From Maribacter luteus (lineage in GTDB: Bacteria; Bacteroidota; Bacteroidia; Flavobacteriales; Flavobacteriaceae): 64,000 bases of DNA. The first letter of the stretch is position 1; each line of letters begins with the position of its first letter. The translations under genes were made by a program, and so were the position numbers. Of this stretch, positions 23,500 through 59,219 are shown piece after piece. The notes under the pieces were generated by a model. That model saw nothing but the letters and a program-made list of their open reading frames with translations, was not told the DNA's origin and did no database searches. The stretch lies in assembly GCF_009674825.1 (NCBI RefSeq), contig NZ_WKJH01000030.1, positions 310,001 through 374,000 on the forward strand. Direction: 5' to 3'.

Positions 23500-23542
23500 T
23501 GATGGGCATCATGAAAAATTCCCGTTATGTTTCGTATTTTTA
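23500..23542 (+). promoter_or_regulatory. Crp/Fnr-type site and promoter for cls (site 1)
   Basis: TGATGGGCATCA (23500-23511), within the exact palindrome ATGATG-GG-CATCAT, is followed after 23 bases by TATTTTTA (23535-23542). The expected leader to the start codon at 23565 is short. This is the first of 12 sites with the same layout. Confidence 0.7.
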
Positions 23543-23564
23543 AACCCTATTCCTAAAAACCGCT

Positions 23565-24992
23565 ATGTATTGGATAATAGCCTTGATAATTTATGTGCTT
23601 ATTGCCATTGGTATGGTCATTAGCTTGTTGGTCAACGGAATTAAACCGGCCAAAACACTAGCTTGGTTATTAACTATTTTCACTATTCCCATCGGAGGTA
23701 TCCTACTTTATTGGATGATCGGAAGAAACAGAAAAAAGTATTCTTGGAAAGACATTCAGGAAGATATAGCGATCAACAATTACCTAAAAAAAATACAGGA
23801 AAACAAAGACGCTGCGGAAACAGTGGAAATGGAGGCTGAAGAATATTCCAAAATTACCCACCTTGTTGAAAAGAACAATGGTTTTAAGCCCACCAAGAAC
23901 AATGAGGTTAAATTGTTGAAGGATGGCAAGGCAACATTCGATGCCATTTTTAAAGCCCTTGAATCTGCCGATAAATATATCTATCTACTTTATTACATTT
24001 TTGAAGAAGGAGAACTCGCGGACAGATTGATAGCTTTATTTGACGAAAAAGTGAAAAAAGGTGTTAAGGTAAAGATCATCTACGATGGGGTCGGCAGTTA
24101 TTCACTGAGTAAAAGATATATTACCCAACTTAAATCGATCGGTGTAGAGGTTTATCCTTTTCTGCCCTTTAAATTGGGAAGGTTCTTAGCATCTATCAAC
24201 TACAGGAACCATAGAAAAATTATTATCGTTGATGGCAAGATCGCGTTTACAGGGGGGATAAACATTTCGGATAAATACCTGAAAGGTGATCTGGTACTTG
24301 GTAAATGGCACGACATGCACATACAATTACGTGGTGCTTCGGTTTTAGAATTGCAAGTTGTATTTGAGATTGATTGGTTCTTGGTCTCCGGTGACAATTC
24401 GGAATTAAATCGTGATTTGCCTTCTTTGGAAGAAAAGGTAGGGAACCAAATCGTACAGATCGTTTATGGCGGACCTGACGATTATTTCTCCCCAATAGGG
24501 CAAACGTACTTCGCTATGATCAATAATGCCAAAAAATATATCTACATTACCAATCCCTATATTATTCCGGGCACAGCGATTCTCAGATCTTTGGAAGTTG
24601 CCGCCAATAGCGGTGTCGATGTTAGGCTTCTGGTATCGGCCAATGCTGATAGCACTTTGGTGAATTGGAGTGTTAGATCGTATTTTGAAACTTTTCTAAG
24701 GGCCGGGGTAAAAATATATCTGTTCCCCAAAGGATTCCTACACAGCAAGATCATCGTTTCGGATGATAATCTTGTTTCTATAGGTACCGCCAATATGGAT
24801 ATAAGAAGCTTTGAACAAAATTATGAGGTAAATGCCCTGGTCTATGATCAAAAAACAGCCCTTTTACTAAAACAGGATTTTTTAAATGAGATAGACCAAA
24901 GTATACCTTTAGACTATGAAACCTTTATGAATAGACCCTATCTGGAAAAAATTAAGGAAGGTTTTGCCAAAATATTCAGCCCATTGTTATAG
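23565..24992 (+). CDS. cls: Cardiolipin synthase (phospholipase D superfamily)
   Basis: 475 residues. Two N-terminal transmembrane segments (PLDc_N, about 2-25 and 35-55) precede two HKD motifs: H216-x-K in N-H-R-K-I-I-I-V-D-G and H393-x-K in H-S-K-I-I-V-S-D-D. The enzyme joins phosphatidylglycerol (or PG and PE) to make cardiolipin at the inner membrane. The gene has the island's regulatory site upstream, so cardiolipin synthesis is probably raised with the stress regulon. Its last six bases overlap the end of the convergent dehydrogenase gene. Confidence 0.92.
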   Translation: MYWIIALIIYVLIAIGMVISLLVNGIKPAKTLAWLLTIFTIPIGGILLYWMIGRNRKKYSWKDIQEDIAINNYLKKIQENKDAAETVEMEAEEYSKITHLVEKNNGFKPTKNNEVKLLKDGKATFDAIFKALESADKYIYLLYYIFEEGELADRLIALFDEKVKKGVKVKIIYDGVGSYSLSKRYITQLKSIGVEVYPFLPFKLGRFLASINYRNHRKIIIVDGKIAFTGGINISDKYLKGDLVLGKWHDMHIQLRGASVLELQVVFEIDWFLVSGDNSELNRDLPSLEEKVGNQIVQIVYGGPDDYFSPIGQTYFAMINNAKKYIYITNPYIIPGTAILRSLEVAANSGVDVRLLVSANADSTLVNWSVRSYFETFLRAGVKIYLFPKGFLHSKIIVSDDNLVSIGTANMDIRSFEQNYEVNALVYDQKTALLLKQDFLNEIDQSIPLDYETFMNRPYLEKIKEGFAKIFSPLL

Positions 24993-27101: not shown

Positions 27102-27423
27102 AGTCTATTGTTTTTATTTTACTTTCATCATACGGTGCATCCTTATGCTTTCCAGGTTCCGATTACATTTACCAAGTTATCTATTTTGCGGTTTGGGCTC
27201 AATGATTTAGATCAGTCAATCATAAAGCGATCGGTTTAATCCCAATGATTTACTTTTCTACGACATGTTATGTCTTCTTTTTACGACAGATTTGATTAAG
27301 TATTCTTATTTTTGAGGATGATTCAATTTTTATAAGTCGATGTCAATGACTATTTTGCATCGTTGCAAAACAACTGACTGACACAAACACGAATTTACAT
27401 CAACGTTAAAGTTGCTCCCCAAG
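27102..27423. other. Divergent regulatory region between paralogue 1 and the LytTR regulator
   Basis: 322 bases without a gene. It holds the Crp/Fnr-type site at 27203-27214 with its minus-strand -7 element, and a separate TATTTTTG at 27307-27314 that could be the promoter of the plus-strand regulator gene, giving a leader of about 100 bases. A loose inverted repeat (ACATGTTATGT at 27263-27273) has no assigned role. Confidence 0.5.
27172..27214 (-). promoter_or_regulatory. Crp/Fnr-type site and promoter of the paralogue 1-lipoprotein-ldhA operon (site 2)
   Basis: TGATTTAGATCA (27203-27214). On the minus strand, 23 bases later, comes TAACTTGG (27172-27179). No -7 element is found at this spacing on the plus strand, so the LytTR gene is probably not a target. 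Confidence 0.6.
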
Positions 27424-28593: not shown

Positions 28594-28636
28594 TAAAATT
28601 ATCCATGACCTCATTGTTTTACAATGACGAAGATCA
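28594..28636 (-). promoter_or_regulatory. Crp/Fnr-type site and promoter of paralogue 2 (site 3)
   Basis: TGACGAAGATCA (28625-28636), then on the minus strand 23 bases and TAATTTTA (28594-28601). The site sits in the 68-base gap between the beta-CASP gene's stop and this gene's start. Confidence 0.65.
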
Positions 28637-28645: not shown

Positions 28646-30016
28646 CTAAACCATTAACTCAATGGTTTCATAGAGCTTAGGTATATGCACCTGCCAATTA
28701 TGCTCATATACCAATTTACTCCTAAACGTATCGAGTGCCGTGGGCTCCCCATGTACCAAAAACACCTTTTCCGGTACGTTTTTCAAAGCTTCTACCCAAT
28801 GTAACAGTCCTGATTGATCAGCATGTGCCGAAAGGCTCTCCAAATGTTCTATTTTCGCTTTTACCGGATAATATTTACCAAAAAGCTTAAGTTCATGGGC
28901 GCCTTCCAAGAGTTGTTTTCCCCTTGTTCCCTCGGCTTGGTAGCCTACCAATAAAACTATTGTGCTCTCAACATCGATCAACTGCTTTAAATAGGTAAGT
29001 ACCCTTCCACCGGTTACCATACCACTACCGGCAATTACGATTTTTGGTCTTGGGTCGTCTATGGTTTCCCATGTTTCCTTGTAAGAACTGATGATATTCA
29101 CGTGATCGCACATAGAATGATATTCCTTTAATGAGAGTTTATGCCATGTCGGGAACCGTTCAAAAACCGATAAGACATTGTTTCCCATAGGGCTATCAAC
29201 AAAAATGGGGATATTCGGAATCTTGTTCTTTTTATAGAGCATCCATATTTGGTACATAAGTGATTGTAAACGCTCAACGGCAAAAGAAGGGATAATGAGA
29301 TTTCCTTTTTGATGAATGGTCTTATTCACCAATTGGGCCAAAATTGCCTCCACATCTTCTTGCGGATGGTTTTTATTGCCATATGTACTTTCTATAAACA
29401 GGTAGTCGGCCCATTCAGGACGTTCAGGTGGCGCCAATAGAAAATCTTCCGTTCTACCCACATCCCCGGAAAAGACAAACCGCTTTTCAAAAATCTCCAA
29501 CTCAATAAATGTAGCACCAATGATATGTCCGTTGTATTTGGTTCTAAAACGCACATTTGAGGATAAGATCACCCATTCGTCATTTTCTACGGATGAAAAA
29601 AGTTGAATGGTCCTTTCCGCTTCCTTCAGGGTATAGAACGGTAATGCGGGATCATGCTTGGAATACCCCTCCTTATTTGCTTTTTCTGCCTCTTCCTCAT
29701 GAATTTTTGCACTATCCTTCAAAATAATCGAAGTAATGGCCAAGGTTGGTGAGGTGCCTAGTATCTTCCCCTTAAAGCCTTCTTTCAATAACCTGGGCAA
29801 ATATCCTGTATGGTCCAGATGACCATGGGTAAGCAATATGTAATCCAATTGGGTCACATTGATCGGTAGAGGGTCCCAATTCTTGACCCGAAGTTCTTTC
29901 AACCCTTGGAACATTCCACAATCGACCATAAGGTTCAACTCAGGTGTCTCTACATAATACTTAGATCCCGTTACTGTTCCTGAAGCACCTAAAAATTGGA
30001 TTTTTACCGTATTCAT
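28646..30016 (-). CDS. Metallo-beta-lactamase/beta-CASP RNase-like protein
   Basis: 456 residues. The N-terminal MBL domain holds the metal motif H-G-H-L-D-H-T-G and G-D-V-G-R; the beta-CASP insert and R-M-M-B-L tail include G-S-G-M-V-T-G-G-R and S-A-H-A-D-Q-S. This is the CPSF73/YSH1-like branch found in many bacteria and archaea, expected to cut RNA. It follows the ATP-cone nuclease gene after six bases, so it is the last gene of the four-gene operon starting at 32267. Such proteins often sit among stress and ribosome-hibernation genes. Confidence 0.88.
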   Translation of the reverse strand: MNTVKIQFLGASGTVTGSKYYVETPELNLMVDCGMFQGLKELRVKNWDPLPINVTQLDYILLTHGHLDHTGYLPRLLKEGFKGKILGTSPTLAITSIILKDSAKIHEEEAEKANKEGYSKHDPALPFYTLKEAERTIQLFSSVENDEWVILSSNVRFRTKYNGHIIGATFIELEIFEKRFVFSGDVGRTEDFLLAPPERPEWADYLFIESTYGNKNHPQEDVEAILAQLVNKTIHQKGNLIIPSFAVERLQSLMYQIWMLYKKNKIPNIPIFVDSPMGNNVLSVFERFPTWHKLSLKEYHSMCDHVNIISSYKETWETIDDPRPKIVIAGSGMVTGGRVLTYLKQLIDVESTIVLLVGYQAEGTRGKQLLEGAHELKLFGKYYPVKAKIEHLESLSAHADQSGLLHWVEALKNVPEKVFLVHGEPTALDTFRSKLVYEHNWQVHIPKLYETIELMV

Positions 30017-30022
30017 ATCAAT

Positions 30023-30868
30023 CTAGCAGTTACATAATTGGCGTAATTCTTTCATTATTTTTTCTTTTCTCGGCTCTTTGATCTCTAAATGATCAAGAAA
30101 AAAACTGTCGTTCAACAATTCCCGACATAAAACGACATCACGACTCAGCAAAAACTGCTTTTCGCGCTGACTCAATAACGTTGAAACGGTTATGGGATAT
30201 AACCCCAACCTATCTATTCGGTCCCTTAACCCATCACCGTGAGGAATATCCCAACTTAACAGATAAAGATCAACACATTTGCCGTATGCAAGGGCATCTT
30301 CGGTAAAACGGGTATTGGTTACCACCCAGCCTTTATCCAATTCACTATTCCCATTTTTCTCTCGCTCCCAATGCTGTTTTATATCATTATATCTTGAGTT
30401 GATGTACAAGGGTACTTTAACATTACAATTGCGGCCCTCATCACTGTGGAACTTACATTCGATTACGGCTACAAGTCCGTTTTTCTTGGCCAAAACATCA
30501 ACTTCATGAGTCACGCAATGACCTTGTAATACCTTACCTACCTCAGTGGTGTAGCCAGAATAACGCAATATCGCTGCAATGAATTTTTCAAAAGGAAAAC
30601 CTGTAGGCCCCAGTTCATATATGGCCTTTTTCAACTTGTATTTAGACGCCAAAATCGATTTTTTCTTTTTTAACAGGGCAAAAGCCCTATTATATATTTC
30701 GCGGGTAGAGATACCTTGATAAAGCTCATCCCGGACTTGATTTACGATCTGTTCAACAAAGACATCGTCGGCTCCACTGCGTTGTAACGACCTACGTAAT
30801 TTCGAAAGGGAGAATTTCACCTTATCGCCTGACGATTTTATGATTTCTATTGCTTGTTGCTCTTTCAT
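30023..30868 (-). CDS. ATP-cone domain fused to a PD-(D/E)xK nuclease-like domain
   Basis: 281 residues. Residues about 5-90 match an ATP cone, the nucleotide-binding regulatory domain of ribonucleotide reductase and NrdR (V-K-F-S-L-S-K-L-R-R-S-L, I-S-T-R-E-I-Y-N-R-A). Residues about 100-210 contain H-E-V-D-V-L-A followed by V-I-E-C-K-F-H, the Asp...Glu-x-Lys core of Mrr-type restriction endonucleases. The domain order suggests a nuclease under (d)ATP control. No methylase is nearby, so it is not a classical restriction system. Co-transcribed with the beta-CASP protein. Confidence 0.75.
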   Translation of the reverse strand: MKEQQAIEIIKSSGDKVKFSLSKLRRSLQRSGADDVFVEQIVNQVRDELYQGISTREIYNRAFALLKKKKSILASKYKLKKAIYELGPTGFPFEKFIAAILRYSGYTTEVGKVLQGHCVTHEVDVLAKKNGLVAVIECKFHSDEGRNCNVKVPLYINSRYNDIKQHWEREKNGNSELDKGWVVTNTRFTEDALAYGKCVDLYLLSWDIPHGDGLRDRIDRLGLYPITVSTLLSQREKQFLLSRDVVLCRELLNDSFFLDHLEIKEPRKEKIMKELRQLCNC

Positions 30869-32290: not shown

Positions 32291-32333
32291 TCAATATCTT
32301 CAAAAAAAAGACCTGGAACAATGACGCAAATCA
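32291..32333 (-). promoter_or_regulatory. Crp/Fnr-type site of the eRF1-like/MscS/nuclease/RNase operon (site 4)
   Basis: TGACGCAAATCA (32322-32333) overlaps the stop codon of the upstream stress-protein gene. At the common spacing the minus strand reads GATATTGA (32291-32298), a weak match to the -7 element. This is the least convincing promoter of the set, though the palindrome is good. Confidence 0.45.
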
Positions 32334-33197
32334 GGCCTTCGCAGGTATTACCAGAAATGGTATATCTATTTTACAGGCCAATTTTTGGATAATCGGTTCT
32401 TTCAGCAAGTTCTCGAAAAACTTATGCTCATAATTCACCATTGCCACCATCCCTATATTCAATTCATCTAAAAAGGTGCGGATCGCGGTTGTCTTACTTT
32501 TATAATTGGGCATCCAATGTAGGGAATGGTCAATTGGTGCTAAATAGGTCTTCAAGGTTTCCAGATTACTCTCCTGGGTCTTAGACAAGGTTTTCTCTTC
32601 GTTTATATGTGCCACCCTTATGGCAGAACCGCAATTAATGGCCATTTCTTTTAAGGAATCAAGTACTTGGGCATCATAATTCCTTTTATAATCGGTTGCA
32701 AAGGCTATCTCATAAGGCATTTGGAAATCGGCATTAATAGGAACCGAAAGAATGGGGCATTTTCTTATCGAGGAAATTGTTTTGACCGTTGTACTGCCCA
32801 AAAACAGGCCAAAGCTATTACTTTCCCCCTTATTACCCATTACGATAAGATCTATGTCGTACTCATCGATAGTCTTGTTAAGGGCTTCGGTTAGATCCAT
32901 TTTTATCGGGATCAATTTATAGGTATGGTTACGGCATTTATGATCAAGGTTAATCCTATGGAAGGTGCGTTTAAGTTCTTCACAGGATTCATCTTTCAAT
33001 TGCTCTAACAGTCCTTTACGATGGCCATCATCATTGGTTCTTTCCAAATTTATACTCAATAAGGGCGTACGCTCATTATAGGCGTTCAAAAGATAAAAGT
33101 TACAAGTTTTTGACTTGAATAATTTTGAAGCATAAAAAAGTGCATTATACGCATCATTCGAAAAATCTGTCGGTATCAATATATTTTTCATGTTCAA
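32331..33197 (-). CDS. Two-domain universal stress protein
   Basis: 288 residues with two USP halves. The first half opens I-L-I-P-T-D-F-S-N-D-A-Y-N-A-L and carries the ATP-binding G-N-K-G-x9-G-S pattern near residues 120-135, so this half should bind ATP. The second half (about 155-288) has lost the glycine loop. It overlaps the upstream USP gene by four bases and is the last of three USP genes in one operon. Confidence 0.9.
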   Translation of the reverse strand: MNMKNILIPTDFSNDAYNALFYASKLFKSKTCNFYLLNAYNERTPLLSINLERTNDDGHRKGLLEQLKDESCEELKRTFHRINLDHKCRNHTYKLIPIKMDLTEALNKTIDEYDIDLIVMGNKGESNSFGLFLGSTTVKTISSIRKCPILSVPINADFQMPYEIAFATDYKRNYDAQVLDSLKEMAINCGSAIRVAHINEEKTLSKTQESNLETLKTYLAPIDHSLHWMPNYKSKTTAIRTFLDELNIGMVAMVNYEHKFFENLLKEPIIQKLACKIDIPFLVIPAKA

Positions 33198-34042
33198 TTA
33201 TTTTTATGGGATGGAATTACTAAAAAAGGAATGGTCTCATGAAAACCTAATTTCTTGATTATAGGCTCTATGAACAAGCGTTCCAAGAAAGTGTGCTTAT
33301 TCTGAATCATTGCCAAAATATCGATTTGTTTCTTTTGTTGGAATGTGTTTATGGCCGTCATGATCTCCTGGTTGGGCTCCTCATGGAACAGATGGGGCGT
33401 TGTACCCAAAAGACTATCTAATTTGGCCTTATTCTTCAACTGTGTGTCGTTAAGATCATAACCAGAGGATACATGCATTACGTTAATCTTGGATTTATAC
33501 CTTGCTGACAAATCCATTATTTCATTTAATTGCTCTTTTTGATAATCGATCTCAAAATCAGTTGGAAAAAGAATCTCCTTCGGAACTTCAAATTCAACAT
33601 TTGGAGGTATGGCCAATATTGGGCAGCAGCCCCTTTTTATGACATGCACGGTATTTGTTCCTATAAAAATCTCTTTGGCCCCTGTAGCTCCTTGGGTACC
33701 CATGATCACTAAGTCAGCATTTTCCTTTTTGGCGGTTTCAACAATTTCATCAACCAAAATGTTGAATGCCGAATGTACCATAAAGGTGTGGTTCTTATTA
33801 TTGAATTCTGATGTAACCTTCTTTTTCAGTTCGTTCAATTGATTCAATGAATTTTCTTGGTAAATGTCTCCTAGACCAATCTGACCGGGACTGTGCAAAA
33901 CATATTCGGCTTGATAGATGGCCGGTGTATAAGTGTGCAAAAGATAAAACGTACACTTTACATCCTTAAATAGTTTAACGGCATAACGAATGGCATTATA
34001 GGCATTATCTGAAAAGTCGGTGGGTAGGATTATACGTTTCAT
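33194..34042 (-). CDS. Two-domain universal stress protein
   Basis: 282 residues. The N-terminal half has I-I-L-P-T-D-F-S-D-N-A-Y-N-A-I and the ATP loop G-T-Q-G-x9-G-T; the C-terminal half (from about 150, I-L-F-P-T-D-F) lacks a clear loop. Middle gene of the USP operon: 15 bases after the first gene and 4 bases overlapping the third. Its divergence from its neighbours suggests old duplications rather than recent copies. Confidence 0.9.
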   Translation of the reverse strand: MKRIILPTDFSDNAYNAIRYAVKLFKDVKCTFYLLHTYTPAIYQAEYVLHSPGQIGLGDIYQENSLNQLNELKKKVTSEFNNKNHTFMVHSAFNILVDEIVETAKKENADLVIMGTQGATGAKEIFIGTNTVHVIKRGCCPILAIPPNVEFEVPKEILFPTDFEIDYQKEQLNEIMDLSARYKSKINVMHVSSGYDLNDTQLKNKAKLDSLLGTTPHLFHEEPNQEIMTAINTFQQKKQIDILAMIQNKHTFLERLFIEPIIKKLGFHETIPFLVIPSHKNN

Positions 34043-34057
34043 CTTGTTTTATTTTAA

Positions 34058-34903
34058 TTATCTATATAAATTTTGCATCACCAAAAACGGAATTTTTATA
34101 TGCAGGCCGATTTTATCCAAAGTTGATTGTACCAACATATCTTCAATAAACGAGTGCCTTGAATTGACCAAAACCAACATGTCAATATTGTTATGTAAGA
34201 TGTATTTGGTAATTGCGATTGATTTATCCTTTTCTTGGGTCGTCTCAAAAACCAATTTGGCCTTGGGAAGACTTTCTCTTAAGAATTGTTGGTTATCCTC
34301 TTGACGAAAGGATAGCTTTTTAATGGGATCTATATATAGCATATGTATGGTAGACCTAAAAGAACCGGATATTTCGCAGAGCAACTTTAATTCGCGCCTT
34401 TTATATGGTACCAAATAATTGGTAGGGAACAATACTTCTTTGGGCGGATGGTAGGCATACCCCTCTGGTATGGCCAAAACGGGACAACTTATATACTTCA
34501 ATACTTGCAAGGTGTTACTACCAAAGGTAAGCCTACGGTCATTGGTCTCTCCCCTTGTCGCCATGACAACTATGTCCATATTCTCCCTGTTTACCAAATC
34601 GTTTACCTCATCTATCAAGGAACCGAATGCCGATACCAACTTATATTTATGATGGGGGTTGGGATATTCGTGTTTGATCTGTTTAAAAACCTTGTCCAGG
34701 TTTTCTTCCGACTTTCTAAAAGTTTCTTCTTTAACCTGTTCCAAAAGACTCCTTTTCGTAAGCTTATCTTGTTGATAAACCTCATCAGCGTAGGCATGCA
34801 TGATGAATATCTCACTTTTTTCATACTTAAATACATGGCATGCATATTTTAAGGCATTGAAAGCATTGTCCGAAAAATCCATAGGTACCAAAATCTTTCT
34901 CAT
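34058..34903 (-). CDS. Two-domain universal stress protein
   Basis: 281 residues from the ATG at 34903. The frame is open to 34930, but that start would lie inside the predicted -7 promoter element. The first half begins K-I-L-V-P-M-D-F-S-D-N-A-F-N-A-L-K-Y. Its ATP loop is altered: A-T-R-G-x9-G-S, with Ala replacing the first Gly, so nucleotide binding may be weakened. First gene of the three-USP operon. Confidence 0.9.
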   Translation of the reverse strand: MRKILVPMDFSDNAFNALKYACHVFKYEKSEIFIMHAYADEVYQQDKLTKRSLLEQVKEETFRKSEENLDKVFKQIKHEYPNPHHKYKLVSAFGSLIDEVNDLVNRENMDIVVMATRGETNDRRLTFGSNTLQVLKYISCPVLAIPEGYAYHPPKEVLFPTNYLVPYKRRELKLLCEISGSFRSTIHMLYIDPIKKLSFRQEDNQQFLRESLPKAKLVFETTQEKDKSIAITKYILHNNIDMLVLVNSRHSFIEDMLVQSTLDKIGLHIKIPFLVMQNLYR

Positions 34904-34927
34904 GTTGCTCGATTTATTCGTTATAAC

Positions 34928-34970
34928 CAAATTTAACTTTTAACACTTGTAATAACCATGATTTTGGTCA
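34928..34970 (-). promoter_or_regulatory. Crp/Fnr-type site and promoter of the three-USP operon (site 5, minus)
   Basis: TGATTTTGGTCA (34959-34970), read on the minus strand, is followed after 23 bases by TAAATTTG (34928-34935), a perfect TAnnTTTG. It gives a short leader to the start at 34903. Confidence 0.75.
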
Positions 34971-35000
34971 GTTAGAAAATCAACGTATTTTATTAATTTG
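34959..35000 (+). promoter_or_regulatory. Same site serving trxA (site 5, plus)
   Basis: The palindrome at 34959-34970 is followed on the plus strand after 22 bases by TTAATTTG (34993-35000). The start codon of the thioredoxin gene is at 35018. One site therefore seems to drive two divergent promoters. Confidence 0.65.
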
Positions 35001-35017
35001 CATTCAAATTATTAGTC

Positions 35018-35317
35018 ATGAAAAGTAGTTTCGGTGATATCATAAATTCGGATACCCCGGTTCTCGTAGATTTCTTTGCGGACTGGTGCGGCCCCTGCAA
35101 AATGCTCGCCCCCATCCTCAAAGATGTAAAGAGCGAACTGGGAGATAGTATCAAAATCGTAAAAATCGATGTGGACAAAAACCCTTCAATAGCCTCTAAA
35201 TACCAAGTAAGGGGTGTACCCACCATGCTTTTGTTCAAAAATGGAAAACAACTTTGGCGGCAATCAGGAGTGCTTCAGAAAAGAGACATTGTTCAGATAA
35301 TTCAATCCCACAAATAA
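35018..35317 (+). CDS. trxA: Thioredoxin
   Basis: 99 residues, a complete thioredoxin. The active site is W-C-G-P-C with Cys24 and Cys27, and cis-Pro lies in R-G-V-P-T-M-L-L-F. It reduces protein disulfides in the cytoplasm using electrons from TrxB. It stands alone among the minus-strand USP genes and shares a bidirectional regulatory site with them, so it is probably a stress-specific thioredoxin rather than the housekeeping one. Confidence 0.93.
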   Translation: MKSSFGDIINSDTPVLVDFFADWCGPCKMLAPILKDVKSELGDSIKIVKIDVDKNPSIASKYQVRGVPTMLLFKNGKQLWRQSGVLQKRDIVQIIQSHK

Positions 35318-35326
35318 TCGTAAAGT

Positions 35327-36166
35327 CTACTCATGTAAAATTAGAAACGGAATATCGGTATGGTAACTGATCTGTTCTACCTTGGGCCTAAATAGGATTC
35401 GCTGAAAGAAATTAAGGTTTTTGGCCACCATGGCAATCATGTCTATGTCCCTTGACTCGGTAAAACATTGTACCGATGTTTCCAGATCGGTTCCTGTAAG
35501 GGAATGGAAACTATGCTTTACATCCTGTAGATAATCATTTAAAAATTCCTTATTACCGGCTTGTTCATCGGTGAGTCTTTCCCCTCTTTTGGAAATATGC
35601 AATATGCGTAGATCGGATTTAAACAAATTGACCATATCTATAAGTGTATCAAGTACCTTAAGATCATAACTCAAGTGGTAATCGGTAGGAAAAGCTATTT
35701 CCCTGGGTGTTTTGAATACGGCATTCTCAGGGACGGCCAAAAGCGGGCATTTAACCTTGGTAAGTACATCTCCCGTATTACTGCCCAATGTAACTTTTTT
35801 AAGACCTGATGCACCTTTAGTCCCCATAATGATCAAGTCAATTTTGTTGTTCTCAACTTGACGTTTTATCGATTCTACAAAAAAATTATGTGAGGCTATG
35901 GTCTTAAAGGTATGTTTACTGCTGGGATCTACTTTTTCCGCTTGTGCCAATAAATGATCTAAACTGATCTTGCTTTCTTTTAAAATGCCCCCATCGACCA
36001 TTTTTGAGGAAACCTTTACACTTGATCCCGCTCCAGAATATGCGGGTATGGGGTTAATATGTAAAAGATGAAAAGTGCAATCGACGTCTTTATACAATCG
36101 AAAGCCATACTTAAGGGCGTTCCACGCATTATCGGAAAAATCGGTAGGGACTAGTATATGCATCAT
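35327..36166 (-). CDS. Two-domain universal stress protein
   Basis: 279 residues. The N-terminal half starts I-L-V-P-T-D-F-S-D-N-A-W-N-A-L-K-Y and has the ATP loop G-T-K-G-x9-G-S; the second half starts at about 150 (I-A-F-P-T-D-Y). It is a monocistronic unit with its own Crp/Fnr-type site, convergent with trxA. Confidence 0.9.
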   Translation of the reverse strand: MMHILVPTDFSDNAWNALKYGFRLYKDVDCTFHLLHINPIPAYSGAGSSVKVSSKMVDGGILKESKISLDHLLAQAEKVDPSSKHTFKTIASHNFFVESIKRQVENNKIDLIIMGTKGASGLKKVTLGSNTGDVLTKVKCPLLAVPENAVFKTPREIAFPTDYHLSYDLKVLDTLIDMVNLFKSDLRILHISKRGERLTDEQAGNKEFLNDYLQDVKHSFHSLTGTDLETSVQCFTESRDIDMIAMVAKNLNFFQRILFRPKVEQISYHTDIPFLILHE

Positions 36167-36193: not shown

Positions 36194-36236
36194 CAAAAAT
36201 AGGACGTTATTGCATTCCTGTAAATGATCCCTATCA
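36194..36236 (-). promoter_or_regulatory. Crp/Fnr-type site and promoter of the USP gene at 35327 (site 6)
   Basis: TGATCCCTATCA (36225-36236), then on the minus strand 23 bases and TATTTTTG (36194-36201), a perfect TAnnTTTG. It sits between the USP start and the response-regulator stop. Confidence 0.75.
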
Positions 36237-36252: not shown

Positions 36253-37305
36253 TTAATATATACGGCTAAGGGTTTCTTGATCCAAGATTTTAATATTATG
36301 ATCCTCCATCGCGATCAAACCCTCTTTTCTAAAACTAGACAAAGTACGTATCAAGGTTTCCGTGGCCATACCGGCCACACTGGCCAGATCACTACGCAGA
36401 ATATGGATGTTACCTTGATTGTCCTGCTCCAATTTATCGGCAAATTTCAATAAGGTACTGGCGGTTTTTTTACGTACCGAGCCATATGCCATTTCCAATA
36501 ATTGTTTTTTGGCTTCTGTAAGGTTCTCTGCCAAAACGTGCATCAATTCAATGGCAAGATCATGGTTTTCCTTAACCACGGTTCTGAGTTCATCCTTGCA
36601 GACCCCGACAAGTACGGTATCTTCAATAGCTACCGCATACTCCTCATAAACTTCTTGTGACGTTAAGGAAGTAAATCCGAAGAATTCATCCGCATTATAA
36701 ATGGCTGTTATCAATTCCTTGCCGTTTTCATCCAATTTATAGGTCTTTACGACCCCTTTAATGATCAAATAGACCATATGTACATTACCACCTTCCCGAT
36801 AGATTTCATCGCCTTGTGCGAATTCAAATTCTTGTCCGTTATCATCTAAATAATTCTTGAATTCGTGAATGTTACGAACCTCAAGTCCACTTGCATGGCC
36901 ATGCTCAGATTCTGAACTTTTGATTTCCTGTAAAATAGCGGCCCTCGCCAACCTACTTTCTATAGCACTTATCAATTCTGATTCTTCAAAGGGCTTGGTG
37001 AGGTAATCATCTGCCCCAAGGTTCATTCCTTTGCGAATGTCCTTACGTTCGGTTTTAGCCGATAAGAATATAAAGGGAATATATTTCGTATCAATATCTT
37101 TCCCTAATTGCTCCAGAACCCCGTACCCGTCCAACTCGGGCATCATAATGTCACAGATGATGACATCGGGTAACTTTTCTTTGGCAACGTTAACCCCTTT
37201 CTTTCCGTTGGATGCTGTATATACCTTATAGTCCGAAAGCTCTAGAAGTTCGGCCGTGTTCTCCCTTAATACGGGATCATCCTCTATCAACAGTACTTTG
37301 TTCAT
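36253..37305 (-). CDS. Response regulator with Crp/Fnr-type output domain
   Basis: 350 residues: a receiver domain (1-120; acceptor Asp52 in I-C-D-I-M-M-P, Lys104 in L-T-K-P-F), a linker, a cNMP-binding-type barrel (about 150-260) and a Crp HTH (about 270-345). The barrel lacks the Arg-Ser pair used for cAMP, and there is no Fnr-type cysteine cluster. The recognition helix has E316 and R320 (E-T-L-I-R), as in Fnr/Crp proteins that read TGA half-sites. It lies six bases after its kinase gene. It is the probable regulator of the island. Confidence 0.9.
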   Translation of the reverse strand: MNKVLLIEDDPVLRENTAELLELSDYKVYTASNGKKGVNVAKEKLPDVIICDIMMPELDGYGVLEQLGKDIDTKYIPFIFLSAKTERKDIRKGMNLGADDYLTKPFEESELISAIESRLARAAILQEIKSSESEHGHASGLEVRNIHEFKNYLDDNGQEFEFAQGDEIYREGGNVHMVYLIIKGVVKTYKLDENGKELITAIYNADEFFGFTSLTSQEVYEEYAVAIEDTVLVGVCKDELRTVVKENHDLAIELMHVLAENLTEAKKQLLEMAYGSVRKKTASTLLKFADKLEQDNQGNIHILRSDLASVAGMATETLIRTLSSFRKEGLIAMEDHNIKILDQETLSRIY

Positions 37306-37311
37306 TATTAT

Positions 37312-38556
37312 TTAATTTAATCCTGAATGAATTCGATTATCAACAGGAAGCTCAACCGTAAAGGTAGTTCCTATATGCTCTTTACTTTCAAAATAAACTT
37401 TGCCGCCAAGATTCTCAATATGGTCCCTTATAATATTAAGGCCAATCCCCGTTCCTTGGTTCAATAGTGCATTTTCTGCCCTAAAATAGCGTTCAAAAAT
37501 ATGCTTCTGGTCTTTAGTGGGTATCCCGATACCTTGATCCTTGATCTTTAAAAACATTACCCCATCCTCGACCTTTATTGAAATATCTATCTCAGAATCC
37601 TCAGGGGAATACTTTACTGAATTATATAGCAAATTGGTCAGGATAAGTGTAACTATTTTTTCATCCTGGTAAATAATCACATCATCAATATTATGGGGAT
37701 AATTTATCCGCTGTCCTATTTTCACCAACATATTGGCATTATAAATAACCTCGTTTACCACTTTGCTCAAAGAAAAGTCAGTGAAATCATATATTTCTTT
37801 TCCTTTTTCGAGCCTTTCTATCGACAAAAAATCGGTTAGGATACTGTTCAGATGACGCACCTCGCCGATTATCGTTGATAAATGTTTGTCCCTTCTTTCC
37901 TGATCCCCTGCTCCCTTATATTTTCCGACAAGGGTTGCAGAAGTAAGGATACCGCTCAAAGGCGTTTTAAATTCATGTGATACTAAAGATAAGAATTTTG
38001 TCTTCAACTCGCTTAATTCCCGTTCACGTTGAAGTGCCGATTTCATCTTCTTTTCTGCTTGCTCCCTTCTTTTGATTTCTTGTTCGAGCATCGATACGGT
38101 TTCCCTGAGTTCAAAAGTTCTGGTCTTGATTTTCTTTTCAAGATGTTCATTCAACTCCTTGATCTGATAATCCCTTTTACTGATCTCGGTCTTATCGAAA
38201 ACAAGTGCCAAAACATAATCAACACCCTCAATATTAAAAGGGTTTAGACTAATTTTCACCGGAAAATCACCCTTACATTTGTGTTGGCCCAAAAGAATGC
38301 GGTCAACCATCATTCTTCCTGTTGTCTTCGCCTTGAAAAACGCTTCAACACGATCTTTATGCCCCATATTGTACGCACCTGGAACCAAGACATCTACGGG
38401 TTTGCCTACAAGTTCCCGATCGTCGTAACCGAACATTGTATCCGCCTTCTTGTTCGAAGCAACGATCAATTGCTCCCTATTCACCACCAATAGTCCTTCG
38501 GAAACCGCTTCTGAGAGTAGATTAAAAATGTAGTTGTTCTTCGCAAAAACCCTCAT
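37312..38556 (-). CDS. Soluble PAS-domain histidine kinase
   Basis: 414 residues from the ATG at 38556 (an ATG at 38583 would add nine). There is no membrane segment. The order is PAS (about 8-125), coiled coil (about 125-185), HisKA with H194 in S-H-E-F-K-T-P-L, and HATPase (N box, D-Q-G-I-G-I, G-T-G-I-G-L). The PAS resembles FixL: H66 is at the haem-ligand position, and R86 is 20 residues later, matching His200 and Arg220 of Bradyrhizobium FixL. Haem binding is a hypothesis. It is followed directly by the REC-Crp regulator. Confidence 0.88.
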   Translation of the reverse strand: MRVFAKNNYIFNLLSEAVSEGLLVVNREQLIVASNKKADTMFGYDDRELVGKPVDVLVPGAYNMGHKDRVEAFFKAKTTGRMMVDRILLGQHKCKGDFPVKISLNPFNIEGVDYVLALVFDKTEISKRDYQIKELNEHLEKKIKTRTFELRETVSMLEQEIKRREQAEKKMKSALQRERELSELKTKFLSLVSHEFKTPLSGILTSATLVGKYKGAGDQERRDKHLSTIIGEVRHLNSILTDFLSIERLEKGKEIYDFTDFSLSKVVNEVIYNANMLVKIGQRINYPHNIDDVIIYQDEKIVTLILTNLLYNSVKYSPEDSEIDISIKVEDGVMFLKIKDQGIGIPTKDQKHIFERYFRAENALLNQGTGIGLNIIRDHIENLGGKVYFESKEHIGTTFTVELPVDNRIHSGLN

Positions 38557-38621
38557 TATAATAGAATTGCGCCAAACTACCATAGGTCTTCAAAACAAAT
38601 GGAAATGACTGTATATTAAAT

Positions 38622-38664
38622 GAAAGGTAATTCTTTAGCAACTACGGACTTATGATAAAAATCA
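38622..38664 (-). promoter_or_regulatory. Crp/Fnr-type site and promoter of the kinase-regulator operon (site 7, minus)
   Basis: TGATAAAAATCA (38653-38664); minus strand 23 bases, then TACCTTTC (38622-38629). This suggests that the two-component system regulates itself. Confidence 0.65.
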
Positions 38665-39218: not shown

Positions 39219-40118
39219 ATGGATTACATTGACTATTATAGTGTATTGGGAATTTCAAAAAACGCCACACCCAACGAGATTAAGAAAGCATATCGTAAAC
39301 TCGCGAGGAAATATCATCCTGATGTAAACCCAAATGATGCGGAGGCCGAACGAAAATTTAAACAGATCAATGAGGCCAATGAAGTATTGGGTAATCCTGA
39401 GAACAGAAAAAAATATGATGAATACGGGAAGGATTGGCAACATGCCGATGAAATAGAAAAAGCCCGCAAAGCACAACAACAACAAGGCAGACGATACCAG
39501 TCGTCGGGCGGATTCGGGGAGCACGATTTTTCAGACTTTTTTGAATCTATGTTCGGGGGAAGAACCACTAGAGGCTATTCCAGTGGTAGGCAACCAAAAT
39601 ATCGGGGGAAAGATTTCAATGCCGAGCTCAAACTACAGTTAAACGAAGTTTACTCTACGCATAAGAGAACCTTAACTGTAAACGGAAAGAACATAAGAAT
39701 AACCATTCCCGCAGGTATAGAAAATGGGCAGACCATAAAAATTAACGGGCATGGTGGCCCTGGGCGCAACGGCGGACCAAAAGGTGACCTTTATATTACC
39801 TTCATTATAGAGAACAACACCCCATTTAAACGCGATGGCAATAACCTATATAAAAATGTAGACCTGGATATATATACCGCTGTTTTAGGTGGTGAGATCA
39901 CAGTCGGTACTTTTGATGGTAAGGTAAAACTGAACGTAAAACCAGAGACCCAAAACGGAACCAAGGTAAAGTTGAAAGGGAAAGGGTTTCCAATTTATAA
40001 AAAAGAAGGCAAATTCGGCGACCTGTTCATCACCTATACCATTAAAACACCCACCAATTTATCTGCCAAAGAAAAAGAACTCTTTAAGGAATTGGCCAAA
40101 TTAAAATCACCTAAATAA
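39219..40118 (+). CDS. cbpA: CbpA-type DnaJ co-chaperone
   Basis: 299 residues. A J domain (1-70) with Y-H-P-D-V-N (the H-P-D that activates DnaK) is followed by a G/F-like linker (about 90-125) and two C-terminal substrate-binding domains (about 128-295). There is no zinc-finger region, which separates it from DnaJ and matches CbpA. It delivers clients to DnaK and may bind DNA in the nucleoid. Its stop overlaps the cbpM-like start by one base. Confidence 0.92.
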
Positions 40119-40408
40119 TGGAACAGTATAAATACATAGAAGTCAGGGATTTTTGTGTCAGTCATGGAATCAGTACCCAATTCATTGTACAATTGCATGA
40201 TACTGGTTTGATTAAGGTAGTCAAAAAAGAAAACACCGAATATTTGCAATATGATGAACTACCAAAGGTGGAAAAAATAGTTCGCCTACATGATGACCTT
40301 AACATTAATCTAGAGGGTATTGATGTTATCAATAGTTTATTGGAACGGGTTGAACAAATGCAAAACGAAATCATCAACTTAAAGAACAAACTGGATTTTT
40401 ACGAATAA
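40118..40408 (+). CDS. cbpM: CbpM-like modulator of CbpA
   Basis: 96 residues. The MerR-like HTH-type fold (Y-I-E-V-R-D-F-C-V-S-H-G-I-S, L-H-D-T-G-L-I) and C-terminal coiled coil (L-L-E-R-V-E-Q-M-Q-N-E-I) match CbpM. That protein binds the J domain of CbpA and blocks its action. Placement directly after cbpA with a TAATG overlap, as in other bacteria, supports the assignment. Confidence 0.82.
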   Translation: MEQYKYIEVRDFCVSHGISTQFIVQLHDTGLIKVVKKENTEYLQYDELPKVEKIVRLHDDLNINLEGIDVINSLLERVEQMQNEIINLKNKLDFYE

Positions 40409-42607: not shown

Positions 42608-43444
42608 CTATACCTTGAAAGTAATAACGGGAAGATCGGCCCTGTTGGCGATATCTTCCCCTATACTTCCTTTGAAAAAATGTGACAATCCTTTTCTTCC
42701 TTGTGTAGGAAGTGCGATAATATCAGCATCAATTTTCTGGGCATAATTATAAATTCCCTGTTCTATACTGTAATCGTTCAAAATAGTGACTTTTTCTTTG
42801 GACGGATTTTCTCCATGATGGGCCGTTCTCATAAAAATCCCTATTTGCTCCTTGATTTCCTCCGTACTTCTAAAATATTGATTAGGACGGTTTATATACA
42901 CCTTATGAACCTCTACTTTCAATTTATTGAAGAAGTTCATCGCCTTCATATAAACCCCAATATGTTCTACTCCAAAATCACTGGCGAAGACCGCTTTTTT
43001 TATATCAAAATCCTTTCTTTTCTTCTTTATCACCAAAACAGGTACTGAACAATTACGAACCACTTTTTCAGTATTTGAACCTACAAAAAGACCTGTAAGG
43101 CCCGTTACGCCATGGGAGCCCATGACAACAAGGTCTATATTCCGTTCTTTTACGACATTGTTCATTTCGTTGAAGTCTTTATAATTCTGAACGATCTCGA
43201 ACACTTTTACCCCTTTGAGGTATGGTTTATCCAAAAACTCATTAAACCTCTTCTTGGCCAATTTCATGTAGTATTGAGCCTCCATGAACTCTTGGGCTTC
43301 ATTTTTTGTAAAAATGGCCTCAGAGAGTCCTAGCATATGTAATAAGATCAAATCAGCGTTGAATTTACTGGCTAAATGTGCCGCGACTTCCAATGCATTC
43401 TCAGAAAATTCAGAAAAATCTACAGGTACAAGAATTTTATCCAT
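42608..43444 (-). CDS. Two-domain universal stress protein
   Basis: 278 residues. The first half opens I-L-V-P-V-D-F-S-E-F-S-E-N-A-L-E-V-A and has G-S-H-G-x9-G-S. The second half also keeps most of an ATP loop (P-T-Q-G-x9-G-S), unlike the four other USPs here, so both halves may bind nucleotide. It lies 32 bases after hpf and is probably its operon partner. Confidence 0.92.
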   Translation of the reverse strand: MDKILVPVDFSEFSENALEVAAHLASKFNADLILLHMLGLSEAIFTKNEAQEFMEAQYYMKLAKKRFNEFLDKPYLKGVKVFEIVQNYKDFNEMNNVVKERNIDLVVMGSHGVTGLTGLFVGSNTEKVVRNCSVPVLVIKKKRKDFDIKKAVFASDFGVEHIGVYMKAMNFFNKLKVEVHKVYINRPNQYFRSTEEIKEQIGIFMRTAHHGENPSKEKVTILNDYSIEQGIYNYAQKIDADIIALPTQGRKGLSHFFKGSIGEDIANRADLPVITFKV

Positions 43445-43476
43445 AATACAGTAGTTTAAGGATTAGGAATTAATAC

Positions 43477-43776
43477 TCAATGTTTGTTCATTATGGCTTT
43501 GCGCTTATTCAATTGTTTTTCGAGATCCTTTATGGTATTGGCCGCAGCCTTCTCAAAATCGTCTTCATTGGAACTGGCGAAAATCCGTGGTCCAGGGGCA
43601 CTGAGTTCCATCTCACAAATTTTACCCTTACCTGATGGATCGTTTTCTTTCTTAAAATGTACTTCGGCCCTGATTACCCATTCGAATTTGTTTGCGAGTC
43701 GATTTAATTTAGAAGTTATTAATTCATTCATCGCTTCACTTGTAGGCATTTGAACATATTGAATGTTAATTGTCAT
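43477..43776 (-). CDS. hpf: Ribosome hibernation-promoting factor (short HPF/RaiA family)
   Basis: 99 residues, the short form. M-T-I-N-I-Q-Y-V at the start, K-L-N-R-L-A-N-K-F with an acidic/basic beta-alpha-beta-beta-beta-alpha layout, and the last helix A-A-A-N-T-I-K-D-L-E-K-Q-L-N-K-R match the family. It binds the decoding region of the 30S subunit and silences or dimerises ribosomes during starvation. It is expressed from a Crp/Fnr-type site, with a USP gene downstream. Confidence 0.92.
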   Translation of the reverse strand: MTINIQYVQMPTSEAMNELITSKLNRLANKFEWVIRAEVHFKKENDPSGKGKICEMELSAPGPRIFASSNEDDFEKAAANTIKDLEKQLNKRKAIMNKH

Positions 43777-43799: not shown

Positions 43800-43842
43800 T
43801 AAAGCTATAATCTTTATAAAAAGGAAACCATGACATATGTCA
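43800..43842 (-). promoter_or_regulatory. Crp/Fnr-type site and promoter of hpf-USP (site 10)
   Basis: TGACATATGTCA (43831-43842) is an exact palindrome; minus strand 23 bases, then TAGCTTTA (43800-43807), 24 bases before the hpf start codon. Confidence 0.72.
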
Positions 43843-48721: not shown

Positions 48722-48764
48722 TGATGAATGTCATAAATAGTGTTATCATATCAAGGGAACTTTG
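48722..48764 (+). promoter_or_regulatory. Crp/Fnr-type site and promoter of the TolC-HlyD-ABC operon (site 11)
   Basis: TGATGAATGTCA (48722-48733), then 23 bases and GAACTTTG (48757-48764). The TTTG half is exact. This placement rules out a TTG start at 48762 and favours 48801. Confidence 0.65.
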
Positions 48765-56985: not shown

Positions 56986-58802
56986 AGTTTTTCCATCCTT
57001 GGGAGCATCTTTTCATTTTTTTCATGAAACTGCTCCATATGCGATAGTATTTTATTCAAAAGTAGCAATACATCATTTATGTAAGGGCCTTTGTTCAACA
57101 TTACACATTCTGCCTTCAATGAGGCCGTTGCATCAGTAATTTCTGCCCTTGATGGCAACCCTTTTTTCGCAAAACTCTCTAAAACTTGAGTGGCCCAAAC
57201 CACGGGAACATGTGCTGCTCCACATAAGGTCAATATTTCTTCTTGCACCTTTCCTATGGCATCCCAACCCGTTTCTACCGCAAGATCTCCCCTCGCGATC
57301 ATTACCCCGATATATTTGACCTTCATGGCCGAAAGTAGTATCTCAAACAGATTATCAAAAGCGAATCGGGTTTCTATTTTCAAGATTATGCTCAAGTTGT
57401 CGATCGCATTCAATTTTTCCAATTCCGTCAATAATTCCTCAACATCCTTTTTAGAGTTGACGAAGGAAAAATTAACAACATCGGCATGCTCAACAACAAA
57501 TTTAAGATCTATTTTATCTTTTTCGGTCAACCCACTTATTCCGAGATATGTGGTTGGGAAGTTCATTCCCTTTTCCGCCTTTAATTTAGATCCGTTCTCA
57601 TTGGCGCGAACGATTCGTAGATCAATACGGTCCGGATATACATTTTCGGCCCTTCCTTCTATCTTACCATCATCGAATAAAATGGTTTCCCCTTTCTTTA
57701 TCCGATCAAAAACCTCGGGAAGTTGACAAGATATGCTGGCCGGTTCTATAAGATTACCTTCCTCATCGAATTTTGCGGGATAACCGAATGTGTCGCCCTT
57801 GGTAATTGTAAGAATATCATTGGTCATCAATAAAATCGACTGTTCAATGGCCGGCAATTCCCCTATTACCCCATCTGGTATTTCCCTATTTCGGCATTTT
57901 AGAATGGTACCGGTACTTATATAGGATGTTTTATTACAATGTAACAATACTTGCTGCTCCCCTACTTTTACCACTTTTAATTTACGTTGCTTACCTCGGG
58001 TGTCTTTCAATGTGAATTTATCACCAAGCTCCAATTTCTGTAGCCAACCCAAACCCACGGGTAATGCATTGGGTTCAGAGGTATCTTTTAATTCAGGAAC
58101 CAATACAAGTAATGCCGGATTTACCACTACTCCACTTTCATTTCGTTTAGGGGAAAATTTACGCACCTTGGGACCGGGTATTATACTTCCTGTCCTAATT
58201 TTTGGCCCTGCAAGGTCCATCGTAATCTTCACCTTTCTTTTCAATGTTTCAGAAGCGGTTTTTACATTCTGGATAATTTGTTCCCAAATGGCCGGATTAT
58301 CATGGGCACAGTTGATTCGTGCACAGTTCATGCCGTTCAGAACCATATTATGTACCATTTGATAATCATAAGCGGCTTGTGTGGGTAAGGTTACCATTAT
58401 CCTAACCCTTCTACCTTTGGAGCGATTTCCCAATAACTCTTTGGTATGGTTCGTTAAAAGTCTTTTACCGTTTTTTATCGATAATCCCGCTTTCAGATTT
58501 TCGGCGGGCAGTTCTCCAATAAGACTATATAAGATGAACCTGGTTTTTAATAAACTCGACATTAAATGTCCTTCTGCTTTTGCAAGTCTTGTTAAACCTA
58601 GATTCTGTAATTTTTTTTGGATATCCCTAAGGTCAAATTTCCTAAAGGCATTATAGTGGATTAAGTTCCTTGCACTTTTATGGTAGTCGGGGTGTATCTG
58701 ACTTAAAAGACCTTCCGCTTCGTTTTCTTCTTGCTGTACCGCAATGATTATGGTTTCAATCTGTGCGATCAGCTCCTTTATTTTCTCAGTCTTTAATTTC
58801 AT
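56982..58802 (-). CDS. pyk: Pyruvate kinase-like protein with N-terminal extension
   Basis: 606 residues from the ATG at 58802; the frame is open to 58862, but the -7 element at 58837-58844 excludes that start. The kinase part begins at about residue 130 (R-I-M-V-T-L-P, A-R-I-N-C-A-H, M-D-L-A-G-P-K-I-R-T-G) and holds the Mg/phosphate site I-L-K-I-E-T and I-A-R-G-D-L-A-V-E. The first 125 residues are a helical extension unknown in ordinary pyruvate kinase, and the C-terminal regulatory domain is short or absent. It converts phosphoenolpyruvate to pyruvate with ATP yield. Confidence 0.85.
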   Translation of the reverse strand: MKLKTEKIKELIAQIETIIIAVQQEENEAEGLLSQIHPDYHKSARNLIHYNAFRKFDLRDIQKKLQNLGLTRLAKAEGHLMSSLLKTRFILYSLIGELPAENLKAGLSIKNGKRLLTNHTKELLGNRSKGRRVRIMVTLPTQAAYDYQMVHNMVLNGMNCARINCAHDNPAIWEQIIQNVKTASETLKRKVKITMDLAGPKIRTGSIIPGPKVRKFSPKRNESGVVVNPALLVLVPELKDTSEPNALPVGLGWLQKLELGDKFTLKDTRGKQRKLKVVKVGEQQVLLHCNKTSYISTGTILKCRNREIPDGVIGELPAIEQSILLMTNDILTITKGDTFGYPAKFDEEGNLIEPASISCQLPEVFDRIKKGETILFDDGKIEGRAENVYPDRIDLRIVRANENGSKLKAEKGMNFPTTYLGISGLTEKDKIDLKFVVEHADVVNFSFVNSKKDVEELLTELEKLNAIDNLSIILKIETRFAFDNLFEILLSAMKVKYIGVMIARGDLAVETGWDAIGKVQEEILTLCGAAHVPVVWATQVLESFAKKGLPSRAEITDATASLKAECVMLNKGPYINDVLLLLNKILSHMEQFHEKNEKMLPRMEKL

Positions 58803-59219
58803 ATTTCCCCTTTTTGCATACGCTGTTATTCCTTTACAAATATATTCATAGGTTTCCAGCATTTTATGACATTGGTCATAATCTTAATTTAAAGTTTTCG
58901 TCTTTCTTTGAAAACAAATGCAAAATCCAATTTAGTGACCATTTTCCTAAATATATTGATTTGGAAAAATCATCCTAGAAATACACGTGAACTACAATAC
59001 CCGACTATTTTTCATCCAAGTCAGAAACGATAACCCGAGTATCAATTTCTTATATGAATTATCATAAAATAACAATCCAACAAACTATAAATCAAACCAT
59101 TATAATCATCTACTTAAATCAGTATATTGCTTAATGAAGCCATTGTTCTTAAAGTTATTGAACCCAAAACAATTTCTTCTTTAAAAATTGTAGTTTTATA
59201 AAGTAATTAGCCAATTTTT
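58803..59219. other. Intergenic region between the pyk operon and the M14 peptidase gene
   Basis: 417 bases, AT-rich, no ORF. It holds the Crp/Fnr-type site and -7 element of the pyk operon (58837-58878). Upstream of the M14 gene is TAGTTTTA at about 59188-59195, a possible -7 element. Nothing else was recognised. Confidence 0.5.
58837..58878 (-). promoter_or_regulatory. Crp/Fnr-type site and promoter of the pyk-amylase-glgX operon (site 12)
   Basis: TGACATTGGTCA (58867-58878), then on the minus strand 22 bases and TATATTTG (58837-58844), a perfect TAnnTTTG. It decides the pyk start at 58802. Confidence 0.75.

Follow-up and report, generated by a model that had tools for sequence, protein, structure and literature searches.

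A 64,000-nucleotide stretch of the Maribacter luteus genome (contig NZ_WKJH01000030.1 of assembly GCF_009674825.1, positions 310,001 to 374,000; here "the window") contains an island of genes for universal stress proteins (Usp), a ribosome hibernation factor (HPF), chaperone-type proteins, nucleases, and several small proteins. Among them lies a gene for a protein that joins a receiver domain to a Crp/Fnr-type output (REC-CRP), next to a gene for a PAS histidine kinase that resembles FixL, and 12 TGA-N6-TCA palindromes are found in front of the genes of the island and its surroundings (Table 1). An earlier note, made from the sequence alone, had taken these palindromes for the sites of a Crp/Fnr activator that defines a 35-kb stress regulon. 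The regulator that reads them, unnamed in that note, is probably REC-CRP, which is encoded inside the cluster itself.

Table 1. Regulator, kinase, palindromic sites, and other genes of the island. Site descriptions give the genes that the site faces (strand in parentheses) and the box score, i.e., the number of the 6 letters of TAnnTTTG that are matched, at the given gap from the palindrome. ORF, open reading frame.
Feature	Position	Strand	Description
REC-CRP, proposed regulator	36253..37305	(-)	Response_reg + cNMP_binding + HTH_Crp_2 (Pfam)
PAS histidine kinase, FixL-like	37312..38583	(-)	Pfam; directly upstream of REC-CRP, same strand
Site 1	23500..23511		Cardiolipin synthase (+), 5/6 at 23; Pyr_redox gene (-), 5/6 at 24
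Site 2	27203..27214		ORF 26658-27101 (-), 5/6 at 23; LytTR response regulator (+), 2/6
Site 3	28625..28636		ORF 28146-28577 (-), 5/6 at 23
Site 4	32322..32333		ORF 31860-32267 (-), 3/6; overlaps end of Usp ORF 32331-33197
Site 5	34959..34970		Divergent: Usp 34058-34930 (-), 6/6 at 23; thioredoxin 35018-35317 (+), 5/6 at 22
Site 6	36225..36236		Usp 35327-36166 (-), 6/6 at 23; just downstream of REC-CRP
Site 7	38653..38664		Divergent: kinase/REC-CRP operon (-), ORF 38713-39165 / CbpA-CbpM (+); 5/6 at 23 both ways
Site 8	40597..40608		ORF 40676-41125 (+), 5/6 at 23
Site 9	42129..42140		Divergent: ROK kinase (-), ORF 42210-42605 (+); 4/6 both ways
Site 10	43831..43842		HPF 43477-43776 and Usp 42608-43444 (-), 5/6 at 23
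Site 11	48722..48733		OEP/HlyD/ABC2 exporter operon (+), 5/6 at 23; aldose epimerase (-), 2/6
Site 12	58867..58878		Pyruvate-kinase-like / amylase / isoamylase operon (-), 6/6 at 22
Four of five island Usp genes	32331..36166	(-)	Pfam; thioredoxin between them on (+)
Fifth Usp and HPF	42608..43776	(-)	Pfam
CbpA (DnaJ) and CbpM-like MerR_2 protein	39219..40408	(+)	Pfam
Beta-CASP nuclease and Mrr/ATP-cone protein	28646..30868	(-)	Pfam
131-aa protein	42210..42605	(+)	No family match

All 12 palindromes were found where the earlier note had placed them, and their flanks are as it described: on the plus strand, A precedes TGA in 11 of 12 (the palindrome at 42129 has C), and T or G follows TCA in all 12. 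Every one of them also fits a tighter form, TGAY-N4-RTCA, which matches 14 positions in the window. Of the two additional matches, the one at 16304 falls within an ORF (15874-16329), and the one at 22349-22360 lies between convergent ORFs, is flanked by an inverted repeat, and probably represents a terminator rather than a site of regulation. The loose palindrome is only mildly enriched (30 occurrences in the window versus 20.4 expected, with 1 of 100 shuffles as high), so the signal resides in position and spacing. We counted 18 gene-facing orientations instead of the 15 reported previously, and in 13 of these the sequence at a gap of 22 to 24 agrees with TAnnTTTG at 5 or more of its 6 letters; at 69 other offset triplets, the average is 0.81 of 18 and the maximum is 4. 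The fixed promoter spacing is thus borne out, and the gap, given before as 22 to 23, is usually 23: over the 24 directions of the 12 sites, the box stands at 23 in 10, at 22 in 2, and at 24 in 2.

The site and its spacing were then followed into relatives of the locus, namely the best 80 of at least 571 confirmed stretches (50 to 84% identity), which are centered on REC-CRP by construction. Sites were classed as intergenic with our own ORF caller, which takes ATG starts and ORFs of 70 aa or more; sites within the first 30 bases of a gene were still accepted. The intergenic bias holds in these loci, where 418 of the 506 TGAY-N4-RTCA sites are intergenic even though the coding fraction is 0.86; for the seven control palindromes that match more than 50 times, the intergenic share is 11 to 21%, versus 83% for the site. 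Of the outcomes named in the earlier note as able to refute it, the two that concern intergenic bias and conservation in relatives did not materialize. From the intergenic sites, a box matching at least 5 of 6 letters occurs at exactly 23 in 45% of 834 directions and at other distances in 1.4%. For sites called coding, the share with a box at 23 is 12% (176 directions), and these boxes probably reflect errors of the ORF caller. Full sites, i.e., palindrome and box together, number 126 in 64 of the 80 loci, or 81 per Mb, compared with none for the reversed control and with 3.05 per Mb in whole genomes that encode REC-CRP. The flank proximal to the promoter is T in 124 of the 126, and the distal flank is C in 65, A in 49, T in 11, and G in 1, which gives the consensus [C/A]TGAY-N4-RTCAT. 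A chance origin of sites and spacing was ruled out by the offsets in the window, the reversed patterns, and the control palindromes in the relatives. Mapped transcription starts of Flavobacterium psychrophilum, in the portion of the study available, place TAnnTTTG at -12 to -5 (PMC9723704). Combined with a gap of 23, this would put the palindrome center at -41.5 relative to the predicted starts, close to the class II Crp/Fnr activator position proposed in the earlier note.

REC-CRP is a member of the Crp/Fnr superfamily (PF00027, 9.9e-16; PF13545, 1.5e-12) and also has the makings of a response regulator, with phosphorylatable receiver residues and an adjoining kinase gene. All 80 relatives share receiver residues D9, D52, and K104 and recognition-helix residues E316, I319, and R320. 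The alignment of these relatives contains no conserved Fe-S cysteine set. Cys51, within the receiver motif ICDIMMP, is the sole REC-CRP cysteine present in 80 of 80, and C is found in 30 at one further column; REC-CRP is therefore unlikely to carry an FNR-type Fe-S cluster. The protein scores below the NCBIfam cutoffs for Fnr (65.1 versus 228 bits) and for FixK (79.8 versus 300 bits), compared with which it has an extra receiver domain, and 0 of the 25 NCBIfam families listed, among 107 matched, reach their own cutoff. No solved structure spanning both halves was present among the 60 listed of the 414 matches to the REC-CRP profile. The predicted template modeling score of the structure model is 0.41, and the domain arrangement was not drawn from it.

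The kinase gene adjoins that of REC-CRP in all 78 loci in which it was found (no such gene turned up in the other 2), and alignment of the relatives suggests that its true start lies near 38556. A single-sequence search of the PDB with the kinase PAS domain returned only FixL, DosP, and other Escherichia coli DOS heme domains (13 sequences). With a profile of 30 such PAS domains, the top 13 matches are DosP and FixL heme domains (1e-22 to 1e-16), followed by 10jx (4e-14, titled heme-binding PAS domain) and by LOV domains from 1e-10. For the predicted PAS fold (mean predicted local distance difference test score, 77.6), Foldseek places FixL or DosP at ranks 1 to 9, with a best value of 2.4e-10. 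In FixL, the proximal histidine is the heme ligand; 68 of 75 scorable kinases retain the residue aligned with it, H75, and 3 of 78 are gapped there. By sequence, fold, and proximal histidine, the domain groups with FixL and DosP, and we infer that it binds heme and senses oxygen.

In the whole genome (4.65 Mb), ATGAY-N4-RTCAT occurs at 70 places versus 22 for the reversed pattern. A scan of the kind proposed in the earlier note, run with the tighter TGAY-N4-RTCA-N22-23-TAnnTTTG, yields 27 matches versus 0 reversed. The matches concentrate in two places, the window (C6:310-374 kb) and a second island (C15:412-447 kb). The regulon is thus not confined to 35 kb, as the genome contains this second island and an FNR-type core regulon with the same half-sites. 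Forty of the genes behind intergenic sites in 20 stretches of this genome were scanned with Pfam, and they include those for a HemN-like radical-SAM protein, five Usp, a CBS/M50 protease, PfkB, two Hsp20, FixI, FixS, PFL, PPDK, NadA, a ScdA_N protein, and OYE-type and glyoxalase proteins; 8 of the 40 have no Pfam match at an E value of ≤1e-5.

Across 249 genomes of the family, REC-CRP was detected in 113 and a stand-alone FNR-like gene in 155 (E value of ≤1e-50); two genomes with only partial REC-CRP matches that passed an E value of ≤1e-30 (G013 and G027) were counted as negative, and one with a match to residues 1-243 (G227) was counted as positive. Full sites per genome, with counts carried over by hand, average 12.9 in genomes with both regulators (n = 68), 8.6 in those with REC-CRP and no FNR match at this threshold (n = 45, none at zero), 6.4 in those with FNR only (n = 87), and 1.2 in those with neither (n = 49, 28 at zero). 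The difference between the REC-CRP-only genomes and those with neither (P = 1.4e-13) is accompanied by a difference in genome size (3.35 versus 2.28 Mb), but the density still differs, at 2.56 versus 0.52 sites per Mb. In REC-CRP-negative genomes, the site is found at FNR/fixI-cco, hemN-usp, nadA, and pfl (14 stretches, selected for their concentration of sites). The comparison of genomes thus indicates that the half-sites are shared by two regulators, either of which goes with their retention. The FNR-like gene lies ∼1 kb from that of REC-CRP in 10 genomes (G094, G104, G143, G154, G167, G186, G192, G206, G246, and G259), a proximity which suggests that the two regulators work together.

Whether the individual genes of the island keep their sites was assessed by counting relatives of the window genes, in the 80 loci, with a site upstream of the operon. 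The counts are 30/35, 54/59, 36/37, 98/106, and 23/28 for Usp1, Usp2, Usp3, Usp4 (35327-36166), and Usp5, respectively, 22/24 for HPF, and 39/45 for the protein encoded by ORF 42210-42605. These figures stand out against the background, in which 350 of the 835 locus genes without a match to any window protein also have an upstream site. CbpA and CbpM relatives have a site in 8/10 and 7/9 cases, respectively, and relatives of the REC-CRP operon in 61/86. The protein encoded by ORF 42210-42605 is present in 76 of 113 genomes with REC-CRP versus 5 of the 136 REC-CRP-negative genomes (counted by hand); by eye, it has a TerB-like look. Four ORFs of the window (26658-27101, 28146-28577, 38713-39165, and 40676-41125) encode paralogues of ∼145 aa that have no Pfam match, and each lies directly behind a site. 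In the fetched loci, 53 of 83 members of this family have an upstream site, 48 with a box (83 were left of 92 matches after identical proteins, two loci, and locus-edge genes were dropped). The exporter and carbohydrate edge of the set proposed in the earlier note finds no support in its few relatives, with a site in 0/4 relatives of ABC2b, in 0/3 of the fatty-acid hydroxylase, and in 0/2 each of ABC2a, transketolase, and aldose epimerase. No relatives in the 80 loci were assigned to the genes for pyruvate kinase, amylase, isoamylase, OEP, and HlyD.

REC-CRP also has a second branch. Among 395 genomes from across the phylum, 60 match at an E value of ≤1e-40, of which four are receiver-only, leaving 56 genomes with a near full-length REC-CRP. 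In the tree, the window type (81 sequences) and a second type (21 sequences) are each monophyletic, with support of 0.92 and 0.87, respectively. Recognition-helix residues E316 and R320 are common to both types, and I319 is found in 19 of 21 second-type sequences; position 318 is L or F in 81/81 window-type versus A in 20/21 second-type sequences. The islands of the two paralogues differ in the inner tetramer of the site: CTAG, CTAM, or KTAG occurs in 4 of 398 window-type, 50 of 183 second-type, and 0 of 38 FNR-type sites, and within Maribacter in 5 of 68 window-type versus 18 of 49 second-type sites (P = 1e-4), this class, like YTAR, having been chosen after the sites were viewed. Independently of these classes, the tetramer separates the two kinds of islands with a leave-one-locus-out area under the curve of 0.83, with related genera in the training set. 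In the genome of the window, the kinase encoded upstream of the second REC-CRP (L065:1621-4863) combines a FixL-like PAS histidine motif with a LOV domain (GKNCRFLQ). Among 20 kinases of the second branch (L225-L244), 12 have the LOV motif NCRFL, 9 have the FixL-like histidine motif, and 6 have both; those with both could possibly sense oxygen plus light. Extended to Bacteroidota, the findings allow a proposal that we put forward tentatively, with doubt slightly outweighing confidence: a family of receiver-Crp/Fnr fusions would read one palindrome in parallel to an FNR-like protein, its paralogues would each have their own island and tetramer, and, with a heme-PAS oxygen kinase in one branch and often LOV kinases in the other, the oxygen and light signals would meet at a single promoter code for survival under anoxia.

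For the window, we consider it likely that the palindromes are class II activator sites for REC-CRP, that the FixL-like kinase senses oxygen, and that the island is a regulon for survival under oxygen limitation. Heme binding, phosphotransfer, DNA binding, activation, and the oxygen signal are predicted here from the site, its spacing and conservation, the co-occurrence of the genes, and their domain make-up. The PAS domain of the kinase would bind heme in the fashion of FixL; when oxygen leaves the heme, the kinase would phosphorylate D52 of the receiver, and the phosphorylated REC-CRP dimer would bind [C/A]TGAY-N4-RTCAT near -41.5 and activate sigma-A promoters with a TAnnTTTG box. The targets would be the universal stress proteins, the ribosome hibernation factor, CbpA/CbpM, thioredoxin, the nucleases, and several unknown small proteins, perhaps together with the REC-CRP/kinase operon itself. 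The stand-alone FNR-like protein would read the same half-sites at the cbb3, hemN, nadA, and pfl promoters, so that the two regulons overlap. In F. psychrophilum under oxygen limitation, cbb3 oxidase and heme synthesis are raised, according to the accessible part of that study (PMC9723704). Of the "stress regulon" in the earlier note, the shared regulon can be retained, but oxygen limitation is likelier than general stress because the signal is most likely oxygen, perceived through the FixL-like heme-PAS kinase.

Several observations weigh against this assignment. In the window, the boxes at 27203(+), 32322(-), and 48722(-) match only 2 or 3 of 6 letters, and those at 42129 match 4 in both directions. 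Among the relatives, which are related to each other and hence not 80 independent loci, the nuclease pair (20/33 each) and thioredoxin (16/29) have sites hardly above the background, and only 26 of 86 REC-CRP operons are preceded by a well-placed box. Outside the family, 2 of 6 REC-CRP loci were seen by eye to contain a site whose box matches 5/6 or better; within it, the figure for loci of equal size (4 kb) is 10 of 12. LOV folds follow the heme domains in Foldseek, from 5e-8; the aligned histidine is missing from 7 of 75 scorable kinases, and no more than 51 of 75 have R at the distal Arg position. Three genomes in which neither regulator was found (G271, G081, and G180) have 11, 9, and 7 sites, and the genomes counted as lacking FNR may encode more distant Crp/Fnr proteins. 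Finally, at least one full site is present in 108 of the 136 REC-CRP-negative genomes, so that FNR could also drive the promoters of the window.

The last point leads to the principal alternative, in which the window sites are read by the stand-alone FNR-like protein (G000:C15:367618-368316, which has a CxxC at its N terminus), with REC-CRP acting on other targets or only modulating that protein. This protein has the same ExxIR recognition-helix pattern, the same site and spacing mark FNR-type targets in genomes devoid of REC-CRP, and the two genes are neighbors in at least 10 genomes. We nevertheless regard this explanation as unlikely, given that the 45 genomes with REC-CRP alone retain their sites at a level far above those with neither regulator, that sites are concentrated around REC-CRP, and that the inner tetramers differ between the two types of REC-CRP islands. 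Even less probable is a regulator of the cAMP-CRP or carbon/starvation kind with a general starvation or stress regulon, as in the earlier note. The HPF, Usp, and amylase-type genes would suit such a regulon, and the output domain does fall in the Crp superfamily, but the PAS domain of the kinase is of the heme oxygen-sensor type, site-bearing genes elsewhere are typical oxygen-limitation genes, and no listed NCBIfam family claims REC-CRP. The type of kinase and the targets likewise make a cAMP-type CRP improbable. A further possibility is that base composition or the general promoter architecture of Bacteroidota gave rise to the palindromes and boxes, with no dedicated regulator; this would agree with the mild enrichment of TGA-N6-TCA alone and with the -7 box being the standard sigma-A box. 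The rarely intergenic control palindromes, the absence of the reversed full pattern from the genome and the 80 loci, and the few sites in genomes without both regulators make it negligible.

Many marine flavobacteria are regarded as aerobes, and the REC-CRP assignment would provide a readable promoter code for how they prepare for oxygen loss. Many co-regulated genes of unknown function thereby become candidates for low-oxygen survival, and the divergence of the inner tetramers between paralogues allows a direct test of Crp/Fnr specificity within a common half-site. Each component comes from a known family; what appears new, as far as the literature was searched, is the fusion of a receiver with a Crp/Fnr protein together with a FixL-like kinase, the island, and the promoter code. 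That search, which was non-exhaustive and does not prove absence, listed no paper that describes a receiver-Crp/Fnr regulator.

Among known systems, a Usp-rich locus tied to low oxygen has a counterpart in the lxa locus of Burkholderia cenocepacia, where, in the part of the account at hand, six universal stress proteins are raised at low oxygen and the locus has a role in anoxic persistence (PMC9104464). That locus belongs to a different phylum, and the same part of the account mentions no REC-CRP. The system resembles FNR/Anr regulons in its TGAY/RTCA half-sites, its predicted class II position, and targets such as cbb3, hemN, nadA, and pfl, but REC-CRP lacks the Fe-S cysteine set and is presumably controlled by phosphorylation. 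The flanks differ as well, being [C/A]TGAY...RTCAT here and TTGAT...ATCAA in classical FNR sites. In mycobacteria, the heme sensor kinases DosS and DosT and the response regulator DosR control Usp-rich survival genes; the output domain of DosR is of the LuxR/NarL type, unlike the Crp/Fnr domain of REC-CRP. FixK sites are of the TGA-N6-TCA type. In the FixL-FixJ-FixK cascade of rhizobia, as set out in the available text, a heme oxygen-sensor kinase, a response regulator, and a Crp/Fnr protein serve low-oxygen genes (PMC4999443). The window encodes a similar module of heme-type sensor kinase, receiver, and Crp/Fnr protein, known here from its sequence, which points to a two-component system with a Crp/Fnr output as a shortcut of that cascade: FixL, FixJ, and FixK would in effect be compressed into two proteins. 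It differs from the rhizobial system in that receiver and Crp/Fnr protein form one polypeptide with no FixJ-type output domain, in that its promoters are those of Bacteroidota, and in that a survival island takes the place of nitrogen fixation.

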